A stretch of DNA of 52,167 nucleotides from Archaeoglobaceae archaeon. GTDB taxonomy: Archaea > Halobacteriota > Archaeoglobi > Archaeoglobales > Archaeoglobaceae. Under the pieces are notes generated by a model, which did not search any database, was not told the origin of the DNA, and saw only the letters and a list, made by a program, of their open reading frames with translations. The number at the start of each line of letters is the position of its first letter. The stretch's first letter is position 1. Positions 16,907 through 34,825 of the stretch are shown in pieces. The stretch spans positions 1-52,167 of the forward strand of contig JALSLC010000021.1 of NCBI GenBank assembly GCA_026988525.1, read 5' to 3'. Both the position numbers and the translations under genes were made by a program.

Positions 16907-18847
16907 TTACGTGATTTCAATTATTTCACCAGTCTTATCCCAAACCTTCATTCCAAGTTTTTTTAATTCTCTTGCAAATTCCTCGCTATTTAGAGCATTC
17001 AAAAACTTCATAACTTCTTTTTTGTTTAATCTATCTTTCCTTACTACAAAATCATATTCCTCATCTCTGACAGGTATAAAATCTAAACCATATATGTCTG
17101 CAACACTTTTTATTCCAAGACCTACATCGGCTCTTCCAGAAAGTACTGCTACTGCTACAGAAGTGTGTGTTTTTGCTTCAATTTCATAACCCTTTATTTT
17201 TTTAGTCAAATCTTCAAAGTTAATCCCTTCTTTTTTAGCTATATCTTTTAGGTGCATATCTAAAAGAATTCTCGTTCCAGAACCGGGATTTCTGTTTACA
17301 ATTCTAACGTCCTCTCTTAACAAGTCTTCAAACCACTTTATCTTTTTTGGATTACCTTTCTTAACGATCAATCCCTGCTCTCTTAAGTAACCTTTTATTA
17401 ATACAGCGTTTTTCAGTCCAAGCTTTTTTATAAATGGAATGTTGTACTCACCGCTCTCATCTAGGAGATGAGTACCAGCAATATCAGCCTCTCCTCTTTT
17501 AATAGCTATTAAACCGCCCATTGATCCAACATTAATTGTCTTTGCTTTTAACTTAGAAATTCTTAGTAAGACGTCTAAGCCTATGCAGTGACTACCAATT
17601 ATAACAAGATCTGCCGGTTTAAGAGTAGAAAATAATTTTACTTTTACTTCACTTTCCTCTAAGAATATTGCATTTTCTTCAATCTCTATGAATCCATCTG
17701 CTACTGCTAATTTTGATATCATGGCTGAATAATTACCAGTTAGTGGATAGGCAAAGTAATCTTTTTCCCCTCTTACAAGGCAGACCGGCCTCAATTCTTT
17801 TCTACCGTATGGAGATGTAATTCTATATCCTACCTTAGCTATTACATCTTTTTTTTGGTCATCCATGCCAGATAAGTATCTTAGCAAAGGTGAAACAAAT
17901 AATTCAAATATCATAAAAGCAGAAGTAGGGTATCCGGGAAGAGCAAAAACTGGTTTTCCATTGACAATTCCAAAAGCTGCAGGTTTTCCCGGTTTTATAG
18001 CTATGCCATGTACAAGTAGCTCACCAACTTCATCAAGAATTTTGTAAACGAGATCACCTTCCCCAGCAGAAGTGCCTCCTGATGTAATTACAATCTTAGC
18101 TTTTTCAGTTGCATCCAGTATAGTATTTTTGAGTTTTTCCTCCTTATCTTCTACAACCTTGTTTAATACAACTTTCCCACCATTTTCTATAACTGCTAAG
18201 GAAAGAGTGGCTGTATTTATATCGTATATTTTTCCGGGCTTAAGCTTTTCATCCCACCTACATAGTTCGTTACCTGTGGATATTATCGCCACTTCTGGCA
18301 TCTTATATACTTTGACTTTGCCTATCCCACAAGCTGCCAACAATCCTGCCTCTCTGGTGGTTATTTTACTTTTAGCTCTCACAAGTAATTCTCCCGCCAT
18401 TATATCACTGCCAGCGAATAAAACGTTCTCCCCCGGAGCTACAGCTTTATAGACTTCTAAATTCTCGTTCTCGTTGGTATATTCTACCATAACAACAGCA
18501 TTTGCACCCTCCGGCATCATAGCTCCAGTAGATATTCTAACAGCTTCACCTCTCTCAACTCTTACTTTCGGCTCTTCTCCAGTTTCAACTTCTCCAACAA
18601 CTTTTAATATGGCAGGATTGCTTTCATCAGCTCCAAACGTATCTTCAGCCTTAACTGCATAACCATCCATTGCAGCTCTATCAAATGGAGGAACATCAAT
18701 GGGAGAATAAACATCTTCAGCCAAAACTCTATTGTAACATTCTGTTAAATCCACAAGTTCGTACTCTGGTTTCACTAAATTTTTTATATGCTCTAAAACT
18801 TCTAAAGCCTCTTCGATGGAAATAAGTTTTCTAAAAATCTTCCTCAT
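16907..18847 (-). CDS. moeA: MoeA molybdopterin molybdotransferase fused to a periplasmic-binding-like domain
   Basis: The protein is about 646 aa. Residues 1-400 are MoeA (FDRAAMDGYAVKAEDT, SGGTSAGEGD, PGKPAAFG, ALPGYPTSAF), which inserts molybdate or tungstate into molybdopterin. The remainder is a PBP-like domain (ADLVIIGSHC to the C-terminus, with NPGSGTRIL), a fusion known in archaea and some bacteria. ATG 18847 follows GGTGAT and is preferred over GTG 18859. The start overlaps the end of the upstream moeA paralogue by 17 nt. Bases 18421-18691 are identical to the paralogue, pointing to gene conversion. Confidence 0.9.
   Translation of the reverse strand: MRKIFRKLISIEEALEVLEHIKNLVKPEYELVDLTECYNRVLAEDVYSPIDVPPFDRAAMDGYAVKAEDTFGADESNPAILKVVGEVETGEEPKVRVERGEAVRISTGAMMPEGANAVVMVEYTNENENLEVYKAVAPGENVLFAGSDIMAGELLVRAKSKITTREAGLLAACGIGKVKVYKMPEVAIISTGNELCRWDEKLKPGKIYDINTATLSLAVIENGGKVVLNKVVEDKEEKLKNTILDATEKAKIVITSGGTSAGEGDLVYKILDEVGELLVHGIAIKPGKPAAFGIVNGKPVFALPGYPTSAFMIFELFVSPLLRYLSGMDDQKKDVIAKVGYRITSPYGRKELRPVCLVRGEKDYFAYPLTGNYSAMISKLAVADGFIEIEENAIFLEESEVKVKLFSTLKPADLVIIGSHCIGLDVLLRISKLKAKTINVGSMGGLIAIKRGEADIAGTHLLDESGEYNIPFIKKLGLKNAVLIKGYLREQGLIVKKGNPKKIKWFEDLLREDVRIVNRNPGSGTRILLDMHLKDIAKKEGINFEDLTKKIKGYEIEAKTHTSVAVAVLSGRADVGLGIKSVADIYGLDFIPVRDEEYDFVVRKDRLNKKEVMKFLNALNSEEFARELKKLGMKVWDKTGEIIEIT
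18421..18691 (-). repeat. 271-bp identical tract, copy in moeA-PBP gene
   Basis: This tract matches 19673-19943 base for base, while the sequence on both sides diverges immediately. It encodes the MoeA segment from PPFDRAAMDGYAV to VAPGENV. Identity at silent positions shows recent gene conversion rather than protein constraint alone. Confidence 0.95.
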
Positions 18848-20087
18848 ATTTATCACCAAGATCAGATTTTACCAGATGTCTCGTAAGTTTAACTTCTACA
18901 ATTTCTCCAGCTTCTATTCCCTCTAAATTTTCAGGAATTTCAACTATGCCGTGAACTCTGGAAAAAGATGAAAGAATACCAGAACCGGAAGTCATTACGG
19001 GGATTACTTTAAAATCTTTATTTAGCCTTACCCTCGCAAAAGTTCTTGTGCCAGCGTTTGAAGGTATTCTTCTTTCAACTTCAGCTTTAATTACTTCGTT
19101 TGGATAGGCTAAAACTTCAGTATTTTGTAACTTCCAAATTGCAGGATAAACAAACAATTTAAGAGTTATTAAACACGCTACAGGCGATCCGGGAAGAGCA
19201 AAAACTGGTTTTCCATTGACAATTCCAAAAGCTAAGGGCATACCCGGTTTTATAGCTATGCCATGTACAAGTAAATCTCCGTAATCTTCTATTACCTCTG
19301 GCATAATATCTTTTTTTCCTGCAGAAGTAGCTCCAGTAAAAACTATAGCATCACAATTTAAAGCTTTATCAAATGCTTTGTGCATTTCTTTTACATCATC
19401 TTTAACTATTCCGAGATCAATGACCTCACATCCAATGCTTTTCAAACAACTTATTATATTTGGTCTGTTTGAATCTGGAATTTTAGCAACTTCTGATGAG
19501 CTTAAAACATCACAAATTTCATTTCCTGTAGAAGCTACAGCTACTTTAACTTTCTTTGCAACTTTCAACTTTCTTACTCCCGCAGAGAGAAAGTATCCTA
19601 CATCAAAAGGCTGAACAATGTTTCCAGACTTCATAATTATTTTTCCAGCTGTAAAGTCCTCTCCTTTCTTTGAAACGTTCTCCCCCGGAGCTACAGCTTT
19701 ATAGACTTCTAAATTCTCGTTCTCGTTGGTATATTCTACCATAACAACAGCATTTGCACCCTCCGGCATCATAGCTCCAGTAGATATTCTAACAGCTTCA
19801 CCTCTCTCAACTCTTACTTTCGGCTCTTCTCCAGTTTCAACTTCTCCAACAACTTTTAATATGGCAGGATTGCTTTCATCAGCTCCAAACGTATCTTCAG
19901 CCTTAACTGCATAACCATCCATTGCAGCTCTATCAAATGGAGGGATTGTCAATTTTGCAATGACATCTTCAGCCAAAACTCTACCACATGAGTCCAAAGT
20001 ATCTATGATCTCACAACCGGTTCTATGTTTTATAGCTTTTAGAAGTTTTTTCAAAGCTACATCCAATTTTTCTCTTTTCTTTATCAT
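18831..20087 (-). CDS. moeA: MoeA molybdopterin molybdotransferase
   Basis: The protein is 418 aa from ATG 20087 (MIKKREKLDVALKKL); the longer frame from TTG 20099 is unlikely. A TATA-like TTAATAAATC around 20110-20119 (minus strand) predicts a transcript start at the ATG. MoeA motifs are complete: FDRAAMDGYAV, TGATSAGKKD, PGMPLAFGI and ALPGSPVACL. It adds the metal to adenylylated molybdopterin. It overlaps the downstream MoeA-PBP gene by 17 nt, so both are made from one message. Two paralogues may serve Mo versus W, as proposed for other archaea. Confidence 0.92.
   Translation of the reverse strand: MIKKREKLDVALKKLLKAIKHRTGCEIIDTLDSCGRVLAEDVIAKLTIPPFDRAAMDGYAVKAEDTFGADESNPAILKVVGEVETGEEPKVRVERGEAVRISTGAMMPEGANAVVMVEYTNENENLEVYKAVAPGENVSKKGEDFTAGKIIMKSGNIVQPFDVGYFLSAGVRKLKVAKKVKVAVASTGNEICDVLSSSEVAKIPDSNRPNIISCLKSIGCEVIDLGIVKDDVKEMHKAFDKALNCDAIVFTGATSAGKKDIMPEVIEDYGDLLVHGIAIKPGMPLAFGIVNGKPVFALPGSPVACLITLKLFVYPAIWKLQNTEVLAYPNEVIKAEVERRIPSNAGTRTFARVRLNKDFKVIPVMTSGSGILSSFSRVHGIVEIPENLEGIEAGEIVEVKLTRHLVKSDLGDKYEEDF
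19673..19943 (-). repeat. 271-bp identical tract, copy in moeA gene
   Basis: This is the partner of 18421-18691, 1252 bp away in the same orientation. A second patch pair (17932-18018 and 19187-19273, 87 bp each) is also nearly identical, differing only in about ten central bases. The conversion was therefore patchy. Confidence 0.95.
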
Positions 20088-20171
20088 TGTTATGTACAAT
20101 TATTCAAATCGATTTATTAAGTATGTGGTAAATTTTATCTGCTTTTTAAACAACGGCTGGAGGGTGGTAAC

Positions 20172-31072: not shown

Positions 31073-31674
31073 ACGAAAAATTTGGTGATAGAAAAAGAGT
31101 AGAAGATTATCTTGAAGCTATATACAATATTCAAAGTGGAGAAAGAAGATTAGTTAGAACTACAGATTTAGCCAAGTTTTTAGATGTTAAACCTTCAACT
31201 GTTACTGAAATGCTCTTAAAACTTAAAGACTTAGGATACATTGAATATACTCCTTACAGAGGCGCAATTCTAACTAAAAAAGGTACTAAAGTAGCTGAAA
31301 AGATAAAAAAATACCATGAAATATTTGAAATATTTTTCAAAGAGTACTTGGGTGTTAGTGATGATGAAGCAAAAAAACTAAGCTGTGAAATCGAACACTA
31401 TGTGAGTGAAGACGTGGCAATAAAGATTTGCGCTCTAATTTCTGGTAAGTGCGATGTTTGTGAAACGTGCTTTTTTAAATTTGAAAGATTATCTGATGTA
31501 GAATCTGGAATTTATAGAGTAGTAGCATCTCCAAAATCATTAGAAAAAGTTGGAATTTCTCCAGAAAGAACAATAGAAGTAGTAGATAAATTTACAGTCA
31601 AAGTTAATGGAGAAGAATTAAGAATTTCTGAAAAGTATGCATCTTTAATACTATTGGAAAGAATCAAGAGTTAG
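31069..31674 (+). CDS. DtxR/MntR-type metal-dependent regulator
   Basis: The 201-aa protein has an N-terminal winged helix (LVRTTDLAKFLDVKPSTVTE). The dimerisation domain carries H83 and C106-x2-E109-H110, matching the metal-binding H79/C102/E105/H106 pattern of DtxR. An extra cysteine group (CDVCETC) and a small C-terminal SH3-like segment follow. It would repress iron or manganese uptake when the metal is bound. It overlaps the thioredoxin-HEAT gene by ATGA, so the two are co-translated. Its 3' end overlaps the convergent endonuclease V gene by 24 nt. Confidence 0.85.
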   Translation: MNEKFGDRKRVEDYLEAIYNIQSGERRLVRTTDLAKFLDVKPSTVTEMLLKLKDLGYIEYTPYRGAILTKKGTKVAEKIKKYHEIFEIFFKEYLGVSDDEAKKLSCEIEHYVSEDVAIKICALISGKCDVCETCFFKFERLSDVESGIYRVVASPKSLEKVGISPERTIEVVDKFTVKVNGEELRISEKYASLILLERIKS

Positions 31675-32367
31675 ATTTCCCTTTTTTCTCGTGTATGTAG
31701 CCAGTTCATGAGCCAATCTTATAGGTTCGGGTAGTTTGTAACCTTTAAGACATTTAATAACTGCCATTAAAGACTCTTTTGCTGAAATTAGATGGCCGGG
31801 AGATACAAATATAGGTTTGCAATTTTTACAAGTCTTAAGAACGTACCCAATTATCTCACCTTTTTCATCGTACATTTCAGTATATTCCATAACTTCAGTG
31901 GGCTCTTTCGTAAAAAAACCATAAAGTTTTGACTTTGTAACTCCAATACTTTGAACATTTAAAGCTAATCCAAGATATGTAGCCAGTCCACATTTTCTTG
32001 GATGAGCTGCACCGCTACCGTCAACCATTAAACAAACTTTTGAGTTCAACTTATCTATAATCTTTTTAACGGCATGTAATGCAGGATTTCCCTCTCTAAA
32101 CATGAGATACGTTGGTATGTATGGGACATCTGTTTTTTCAATATTAACGAGTTTACATACGATATCGAGTTCAGGTAATTTTAAAGCTACACAAGCAGAG
32201 ATTACGGTATCTCCAGCAAAAGCTTGATCTACTCCTACAACATACTTTGCATCAAATTTTCCTTTTAAAATTACATATTTTGATAAAATTTGTTGAAGTT
32301 TTTTCATTTCTTTAAGCGTTTTTGGAGGATTATTTTCAATTTTTTTGAGAATATTTTCAATAGTCAT
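31651..32367 (-). CDS. nfi: endonuclease V
   Basis: The 238-aa nuclease cleaves near deoxyinosine (or inosine in RNA). The active-site acidic residues lie in VGVDQAFAG, in YLMFREGNP (glutamate) and in VDGSGAAHPRKCGLA (aspartate). The DNA-wedge motif PYIPTYL corresponds to PYIP in Thermotoga EndoV. Archaeoglobus encodes a well-studied homologue. The start is ATG 32367. The first 24 nt of the 3' end overlap the DtxR-type gene. Confidence 0.93.
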   Translation of the reverse strand: MTIENILKKIENNPPKTLKEMKKLQQILSKYVILKGKFDAKYVVGVDQAFAGDTVISACVALKLPELDIVCKLVNIEKTDVPYIPTYLMFREGNPALHAVKKIIDKLNSKVCLMVDGSGAAHPRKCGLATYLGLALNVQSIGVTKSKLYGFFTKEPTEVMEYTEMYDEKGEIIGYVLKTCKNCKPIFVSPGHLISAKESLMAVIKCLKGYKLPEPIRLAHELATYTRKKGNLTLDSFQ

Positions 32368-32624
32368 AACTGTATTTCCAAAATTTTTAGTAGTAATGTG
32401 TTTTGGTTATTTAGTTTTTAGTTATGATTAAATGATTTTGTGTAATTTAAAATTTTATATTAAAAATTAATTAATAAAACAATCAAAAACGCCAAAACAA
32501 TCCTAAAGCATATAAAATATCTACTAAACTTAAAGATATTTTCAATATAGTAATCTATAATTTAGATATTTTAGCAGTTGATATTGGAGTTTTTAACCTT
32601 TTGTTAGATTCCCATTAGTATTCA

Positions 32625-32654
32625 CTTTCAATCCTTTCAAGGTCTGATTTCAAC
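32625..32654 (-). CRISPR. orphan CRISPR repeat (single copy)
   Basis: A 30-nt unit starts CTTTCAAT on the plus strand and ends GATTTCAAC. Read on the minus strand it starts GTTGAAATC and ends ATTGAAAG, the usual 8-nt crRNA 5' handle of archaeal type I systems. Length, both ends and the central GACC/GGTC stretch resemble 30-nt repeats known from Archaeoglobus. No second copy and no cas gene is in the window, so this is a relic, an array reduced to one repeat, or a chance fragment. If it was an array, its leader would lie on the 32655 side. Confidence 0.65.
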
Positions 32655-32735
32655 TTATGTACTATCTCAAATATTGTAGATATCTTTTATCTTACAGCTT
32701 ACTAAAAAGATCTACAAAGAAGACTACTAAATTCT

Positions 32736-32985
32736 ATGGTTAAAATTATTATTCAAATAGAAGTTCCTGAAGAAATTCCAATAGTTTGGAAAGGGATGAA
32801 ATGCTGAAGAAATAGCAAAATACTTCGACTACAAGAAGTAGCTCTTCATCGCATTAGCTTCAAAATTAAACATTCCAATCTGGACTAATGACAAGGCTAT
32901 AATTATTTACGGGTTAAAATATGGGATGTATTTAGCTTTAGATACTCAAGCTTTAGAAGATTTATTGAAAGAAAGGAGTCTATGA
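32736..32985 (+). pseudogene. remnant of an antitoxin/PIN-domain (VapBC-like) pair
   Basis: The first 23 codons from ATG 32736 (MVKIIIQIEVPEEIP) resemble the start of small archaeal antitoxins and run into a stop at 32805. The overlapping next frame (32791-32985) gives AEEIAKYFDYKK, a TAG stop, then LFIALASKLNIPIWTND and GLKYGMYLALDTQALEDLL. ALASKL-PIWTND is typical of the C-terminal part of VapC-type PIN nucleases. A deletion seems to have joined antitoxin start and toxin end, followed by a stop mutation. No functional toxin remains. Confidence 0.55.
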
Positions 32986-33205
32986 GATTAAAGAAGATCT
33001 AAATAGAGGATATTTATAATCTCTCAATTACCAAATTTTGTGGAAGGTTCTAGACGAGGTTGAAGTTTTGATAAAGATAAACCCACTAATAAGCTAAGGA
33101 TTTAATTGTCCTAAAACGTAAATCAACTCATCTTAACATTACTATTCAACTCATATTTATAAGTACAAAAAAGCTTATATTTATTTGGAAGACTTTAACT
33201 ACAGT

Positions 33206-34825
33206 ATGACTCTAAAACCAGGTTTTTTCTTTCCACTTCTGGAGAAGTATGTAGGAGATCTGAGTAAATTTAATCTTATAGAAGACTGGAAAGTAAAGGA
33301 AAATGAAGAAATACTAAAGGAGTACTGGATATACAAACCTTTTTTGAAAGTTGTAATAACTTTCAATAAGATAAATGCTGAAAAAATGTACATAGCTATA
33401 GAACCTATGTTGGTTGACGAAGAAGTTAAGTTATTGGATGAGATATATAAAGATCTCGAAGATGTATTAATTCTCAAAGATATATCTGTAAGTCCTGAAA
33501 CTAAGGCTGAAATATTGGTAAGTACATATAACGAAATTGTAAGAGAGTATGGTGTTATTATATCTAAAAAGTTAAATGCAAAGTATATGTACTATCTCTT
33601 TAGAGATTTTTTGGGCATTGGTGTGATAGAACCAATAATGGATGATCCATACATAGAGGATATACATTGCGATGGATATGACATTCCTGTTTATGTATAT
33701 CACAAAGAATTTGGAAATATCAAAACATATCTTAAGTTTGATCAAGATGCGCTTGATAGATACATTCAGGCATTAGTTCAAATTTGTAACAAACATATTA
33801 GTCATGGTAACCCAATAGTAGATGCAACTTTGCCTGATGGCAGTAGATTGCAAGCTACGTATGGTAAAGATGTTACTCCAAGAGGTTCCTCCTTTACAAT
33901 AAGAAAGTTCAGCGAGGATCCACTAACACCAATAGATTTACTAAGACTTGGTACTTACACAGCTGAACAGTTAGCTTATTTCTGGATGGTAATTGAGAGC
34001 AAAATGAGTATGCTTATAATAGGTGAGACTGCCAGTGGTAAAACCACTACTTTAAACTCTCTGCTAATGTTCATACCACCTGAAGCTAAAATAGTATCGA
34101 TAGAGGATACAAGAGAGATAGCACTTATGCATGAAAATTGGGTGGCTGAGGTAACAAGACAAGCGATTGGTGAAGAAGAAAAAGAAATTGACATGTACGA
34201 TTTACTAAAAACATCCCTTAGACAAAGACCAGACTATATAGTTGTAGGAGAAGTAAGAGGTAAAGAGGCGCAAACTCTCTTTCAAGCTATGAGTACTGGT
34301 CACGCTTGTTACGCAACTCTACATGCGGGAGATATTCAACAAGCAATATACAGACTCGAAAATGAACCATTAAACGTTCCAAGAAGTATGATTCAGTTTC
34401 TTGATTTAATTCTCGTTCAAATACAGTGGACAAAAGGAGGCGTAAAAAAGAGGAGAGCAAGAGGGGTTTACGAGGTCTTAGGAATAGATCCAGCTGATAA
34501 AAACTTGTTAATAAATGAAGTTTATATATGGGATCCATATAGGGATTCATACATTTTAACTGGTGTAATTAAAAAACTTGAAAAAATAGCAATGATAAAA
34601 GGAGAGGAAATAGAAGATACAATGATGGAATTAGAGAGAAGAAAAGAATTTTTAAGCAGATTAAACGAAATAGGAATTAGAAATTTCAAAGATGTAACGA
34701 GCATGATTCATGCATACTATAGAAATCCGGAAATGGAAATAGATGAAATTATAGAAGATACACTCAAGAAAATTAGCTGGAAAAAAGAAGAACACAAAAT
34801 AGACGTTTACAGTAGCCTTGTATAA
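33206..34825 (+). CDS. type II/IV secretion (archaellum/pilus-type) ATPase
   Basis: The protein is about 539 aa from ATG 33206; a TTG 21 nt upstream (33185) is also open. Walker A is [11 protein letters not shown], the Asp box [11 protein letters not shown], Walker [13 protein letters not shown], and the His box [14 protein letters not shown], which places it in the GspE/FlaI/TadA family that powers pilin or archaellin export. TATA-like CTTATATTTA near 33174 would start a transcript at the ATG, while TTTATAA near 33155 would fit the TTG. A GspF/FlaJ-like membrane platform is missing: the next gene is tbp. Confidence 0.85.

Follow-up and report, generated by a model that had tools for sequence, protein, structure and literature searches.

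A single CRISPR repeat standing by itself in an archaeal chromosome raises the question of whether it is left over from an array, could be the starting point of a new one, or has a role of its own. Such a copy lies at 32625-32654 of the window analysed here, a stretch of 52,167 bp corresponding to contig C21 in the draft genome of an archaeon (39 contigs, 1.43 Mb). The initial annotation described it as an orphan repeat with archaeal type I features and a handle on the minus strand, located next to a broken toxin-antitoxin remnant, and proposed either a solo repeat left after array loss or a target for de novo spacer acquisition. The locus comprises the following features.

31651..32367, minus strand: endonuclease V (PF04493), left border of the gap
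32586..32624, minus strand: spacer-side flank of the lone repeat, starting with TGAATACTAATGGGAATC; matches no virus, plasmid, or genome, and no repeat follows
32625..32654, minus strand: lone CRISPR repeat GTTGAAATCAGACCTTGAAAGGATTGAAAG; ATTGAAAG handle intact, predicted small stem as in array repeats
32655..32736, minus strand: leader side of the lone repeat, unlike array leaders; its vapB-adjacent part corresponds to vapB upstream sequence
32736..32783, plus strand: start of a vapB-like antitoxin (MVKIIIQIEVPEE...), soon broken; paralog on contig C32
32809..32982, plus strand: C-terminal half of a vapC toxin (PIN_2 family, PIN domain) with an in-frame stop; N-terminal half missing, relatives intact
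33005..33105, plus strand: second vapB remnant, upstream region plus EVEVLIKINPLIS
33185..34825, plus strand: type II/IV secretion or archaellum-type ATPase (PF00437), right border of the gap

Read directly as the reverse complement of 32625-32654, GTTGAAATCAGACCTTGAAAGGATTGAAAG is a full CRISPR repeat of 30 bases, which is intergenic and overlaps no intact gene. It has 1 copy in the window and a match in 0 of 100 shuffled windows, and the array repeats of the host genome share 27 of its 30 bases (26 if their last base is A). For 1.43 Mb and both strands, the number of chance matches expected within 3 mismatches is 1.5e-6. The orphan repeat is thus real, with array repeats 3 mismatches away in the same genome, and its minus-strand handle is indeed intact. 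The type I assignment, however, goes too far, since a repeat alone cannot give the type; the effector genes found in the genome (cmr1, cmr3, cmr5, cmr6, and a cas10 piece, all at contig ends) belong to type III-B/C (Cmr). With the few models used on this draft genome no type I effector (Cascade) was detected. Cas7-DevR and Cas3 gave nothing above cut-offs, which is a weak negative for a draft genome and Pfam models that can miss them, and the same is true of Cas6 with two Pfam models, which may miss it as well. Both cas1 and cas4 were found. The effector genes are scattered over the ends of contigs C20, C29, and C31, and the cas4-cas1 pair (C36:1070-3009, L075) adjoins another broken vapBC-like remnant.

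No second repeat, intact or decayed, was found on either side of the copy, and the locus therefore lacks the two or more repeats with a spacer that make an array. In the 100-bp flanks the best ungapped 30-mer reaches 14/30, below the >70% identity applied to partial repeats around solitary repeat units (SRUs), and local alignment for a degenerate second repeat downstream gives p = 0.55 against shuffles. The motif GTTAAAA, located 27 nt downstream, was considered as a decayed second repeat and rejected, being not above shuffles. A protospacer search with the flank TGAATACTAATGGGAATC... in viral contigs, phages, and plasmids returned no match beyond chance.

Arrays with a similar repeat, without which the orphan-repeat claim would fall, are present both in the same genome and in relatives; those in the host's family include records named Archaeoglobus and Geoglobus. 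In the host, six array pieces contain the other 41 intact repeats, in the forms GTTAAAATCAGACCTTTAAGGGATTGAAAG or GTTAAAATCAGACCTTGATGGGATTGAAAG, and the copy at 32625-32654 is the sole repeat outside arrays. Except for those ending in A, the host repeats are three mismatches from the lone one. One array is mostly A-ending: located on contig C29 (L037:2673-3155), it has repeats with the handle ATTGAAAA except near the trailer end, and its leader is nearly identical to those of the other host arrays. A second solo repeat suspected on C29 was rejected, as it belongs to this very array, the other repeats of which were missed at first because the A ending pushed them past the mismatch limit. A candidate repeat beside the C32 vapBC paralog was rejected as chance (21/30 only, inside the vapB coding sequence).

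An array repeat in another genus of the same family comes within a single mismatch of the lone repeat (up to 29/30). No array carrying exactly GTTGAAATCAGACCTTGAAAGGATTGAAAG was found in GTDB, and the exact 29-mer is in no other GTDB r220 genome scanned, so that these genomes offer no donor. Compared with the commonest host repeat, the differences fall at positions 4, 17, and 20, which are among the nine positions variable in family arrays, and each of the three states is seen in some family array. The chance of three random changes all being family-like is about 0.002 when judged by state and about 0.02 when judged by position, and the predicted strength of the stem is unchanged relative to the commonest host repeat. 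Differences confined to family-variable positions, together with the preserved stem, argue that the lone repeat did not arise by drift from the repeat the host has today. Judging by its sequence, it looks like a valid repeat variant, either derived from another array (gone or elsewhere) or under constraint; the former is preferred because nothing else at the site looks functional.

Array leaders are strongly alike across genera of the family, with scores between genomes of 71-226 and at most 33 for shuffles. For the lone repeat's upstream region (135 bases), the best local score against an array leader is 20 vs a shuffle mean of 22.3 (p = 0.89). Comparison of the 32655 side with the array leaders, proposed by the initial annotation, thus reveals no conserved family leader, and the locus lacks the leader expected next to the repeat of a spacer-acquiring array. 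The best match to a TATA-like box upstream of the repeat does not exceed what shuffles give (p = 0.63); the same scan detects a perfect TTTATATA in two array leaders. As for the leader side itself (32655..32736), a promoter-like GGTATTTATAATCTC stretch, present in the C32 copy, has apparently been lost from the vapB upstream region.

The 817 bp separating endonuclease V from the ATPase are taken up by the lone repeat and the vapBC remnant. This gap is longer than in the same-genus genomes G005 and G002, in which endonuclease V and a similar ATPase frame are divergent neighbours about 100-150 bp apart; in two others endonuclease V has a different neighbour. The extra DNA is very AT-rich (80% left of the lone repeat), and a 14-nt inverted repeat flanking the gap was set aside, as by our estimate it is about what AT-rich DNA would yield. 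The broken toxin-antitoxin neighbour was correctly recognised from the start: it consists of the vapB start, a second vapB fragment, and between them the C-terminal half of vapC, which an in-frame stop interrupts. Relatives of the remnant are found in G012 and, at 82% DNA identity, on the host's own contig C32; its vapC part has 74% amino acid identity to the genome paralog and 67% to a relative. Having gained stops, the vapC remnant adjoining the repeat is no longer intact, and the vapBC genes are dead. Elsewhere in the window, at 16907-20099, a long stretch (RAAMDGYAVKAEDTFGADESNP...) is identical between two MoeA-like genes in tandem, which suggests recent gene conversion or an assembly effect.

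These observations are best accommodated if the lone repeat is a stranded leftover of a lost or imported array fragment, inert and situated in a dying toxin-antitoxin island, and we consider this explanation probable. One repeat of a variant slightly unlike the present arrays would have been left in, or carried into, decaying non-essential DNA, namely a vapBC island with a conserved gene on either side. Lacking a leader, the repeat would offer no preferred site for new spacers, and without a following repeat it would yield no normal two-handled crRNA. Its descent from a lost array or fragment, whether of its own lineage or received by DNA transfer, and its present inactivity are what we infer from this setting. 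Of the two fates proposed initially, the data agree with a solo repeat after array loss, which remains the leading reading. Given the missing leader and the different repeat variant, however, this was not the plain collapse of an array that the host has today. A dead repeat should also drift, yet the changes are family-like and the stem is kept while vapC has decayed, so the repeat either arrived late or is constrained.

Alternatively, it might act as RNA, although neither a decoy role nor a CreA-like guide is positively supported. One such reading makes it a Racr relic or working copy, that is, the solitary repeat unit of a virus or plasmid, whose putative RNA mimics the repeat and occupies Cas6 or effector subunits. 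The copy is solitary and intergenic, with stem and handle kept, of the host repeat type, and in apparently acquired DNA, and viruses often carry SRUs, which are also known from archaeal hosts (PMC10651486). However, no viral gene was found around it, viral contigs match neither the repeat family pattern nor the flank, similarity to phages and plasmids does not go beyond chance, no clear promoter is present, and no Cas6 was recovered with the two Pfam models, which may miss it; we therefore regard a Racr origin as unlikely. A host-side solitary repeat RNA under selection, which would bind Cas6 or Cmr subunits and tune crRNA production, is quite improbable; the only argument for it is that the differences fall solely at array-variable positions while the neighbours decay. 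The toxin-antitoxin remnant nearby and the existence of one-repeat creA genes (PMC8501985) would fit a CreA-like guide, in which the repeat would provide the 5' handle and the flank a short guide directing the effector to repress the neighbouring toxin gene. At 32755 on the minus strand, where the broken vapB starts, the flank's seed (positions 1-5 and 7-11) does match 9/10 bases, but two 9/10 sites in 2.4 kb of AT-rich DNA are not clearly above chance (0.4 expected by rough estimate). Moreover, the toxin gene is dead, creA repeats are heavily degenerated (PMC9458426) whereas this one is not, and CreTA requires type I Cascade, while the genes found here are only type III-B/C. Neither the degenerate repeat nor the guide seed-matching a toxin promoter that characterise CreTA was found, the seed matches being at chance level, and such a guide is very unlikely.

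Archaeal adaptation is generally taken to require a leader. With cas1 and cas4 in the genome and the repeat intact, the copy might still be a landing site for Cas4-Cas1-Cas2 spacer insertion, i.e., a zero-spacer array waiting to start, but it has neither a leader nor a spacer. The proposed target for de novo acquisition is thus not supported, as the family leader is absent on the 32655 side despite the presence of cas1 and cas4. For want of a leader, naive spacer acquisition is unlikely at this site, and we give the landing site a minimal probability. An array collapsed into one repeat by metagenome assembly is equally hard to credit: although this is a 39-contig draft in which several contigs end within arrays, a leader would survive the collapse, the flanks continue into endonuclease V and the ATPase with the gene order of congeners, and the variant is unlike every assembled array.

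Intact lone CRISPR repeats exist in archaeal chromosomes and can lack a leader, an array, and a virus. Counting them as arrays or as sites of acquisition would be a mistake, which as things stand is a small footnote. If archaeal lone repeats proved to be expressed and conserved, RNA-decoy regulation of CRISPR would extend from viruses to hosts.

Regarding known kinds, ectopic repeats are a class already named (PMC9458426), as are solitary repeat units, many viral ones of which act as RNA anti-CRISPRs (PMC10651486), and the 32625-32654 copy belongs to this kind. Like the SRUs/Racrs (PMC10651486), it is one intergenic CRISPR repeat without an array within 100 bp that resembles host repeats, giving a full match to a known repeat (27/30 to its own arrays). 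In contrast to them, it is in no recognisable virus, provirus, or plasmid, its neighbours being chromosomal and without viral, phage, or plasmid matches, and neither a promoter nor an acr gene was recognised nearby. With CreTA ectopic repeats (PMC8501985, PMC9458426) it shares the position outside an array and near a toxin-antitoxin remnant; it differs in being not degenerated, in lacking both a second repeat and a convincing target, in that no type I effector was found, and in that the neighbouring toxin is a dead protein-type vapC. Trailer-end and remnant repeats of decayed arrays also lack a functional leader, but in the same genome trailer-end repeats are truncated or degenerate, whereas the lone repeat is complete with all other units gone.

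A repeat-pattern scan over GTDB genomes gave at least 13 single-match loci, and among the matches listed at least 7 have no near repeat and lie away from a contig edge (Geoglobus, Methanocellales, Methanosarcinaceae, Archaeoglobales, Aenigmatarchaeota, Methanococcoides, and ANME-2). Intact lone repeats of the same repeat family on non-Geoglobus contigs are L166, L182, L184, L189, L193, and L194. Among the matches listed no neighbour gene common to the other lone repeats is obvious, and a general tie to toxin-antitoxin genes was therefore rejected. Because the lone loci appear in unrelated contexts, such repeats are a recurring, mostly unremarked by-product in archaea. The copy in Geoglobus sp. 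S009_8 (WAJY01000011.1:322-350, L131) has a broken transposase-like frame on one side and, on the other, a Hel308-like helicase gene, whose 3' end faces it. Although identical to its own genome's array repeat and without a vapBC flank, it resembles the one described here in being single, intact, intergenic, leaderless, and of the same family.
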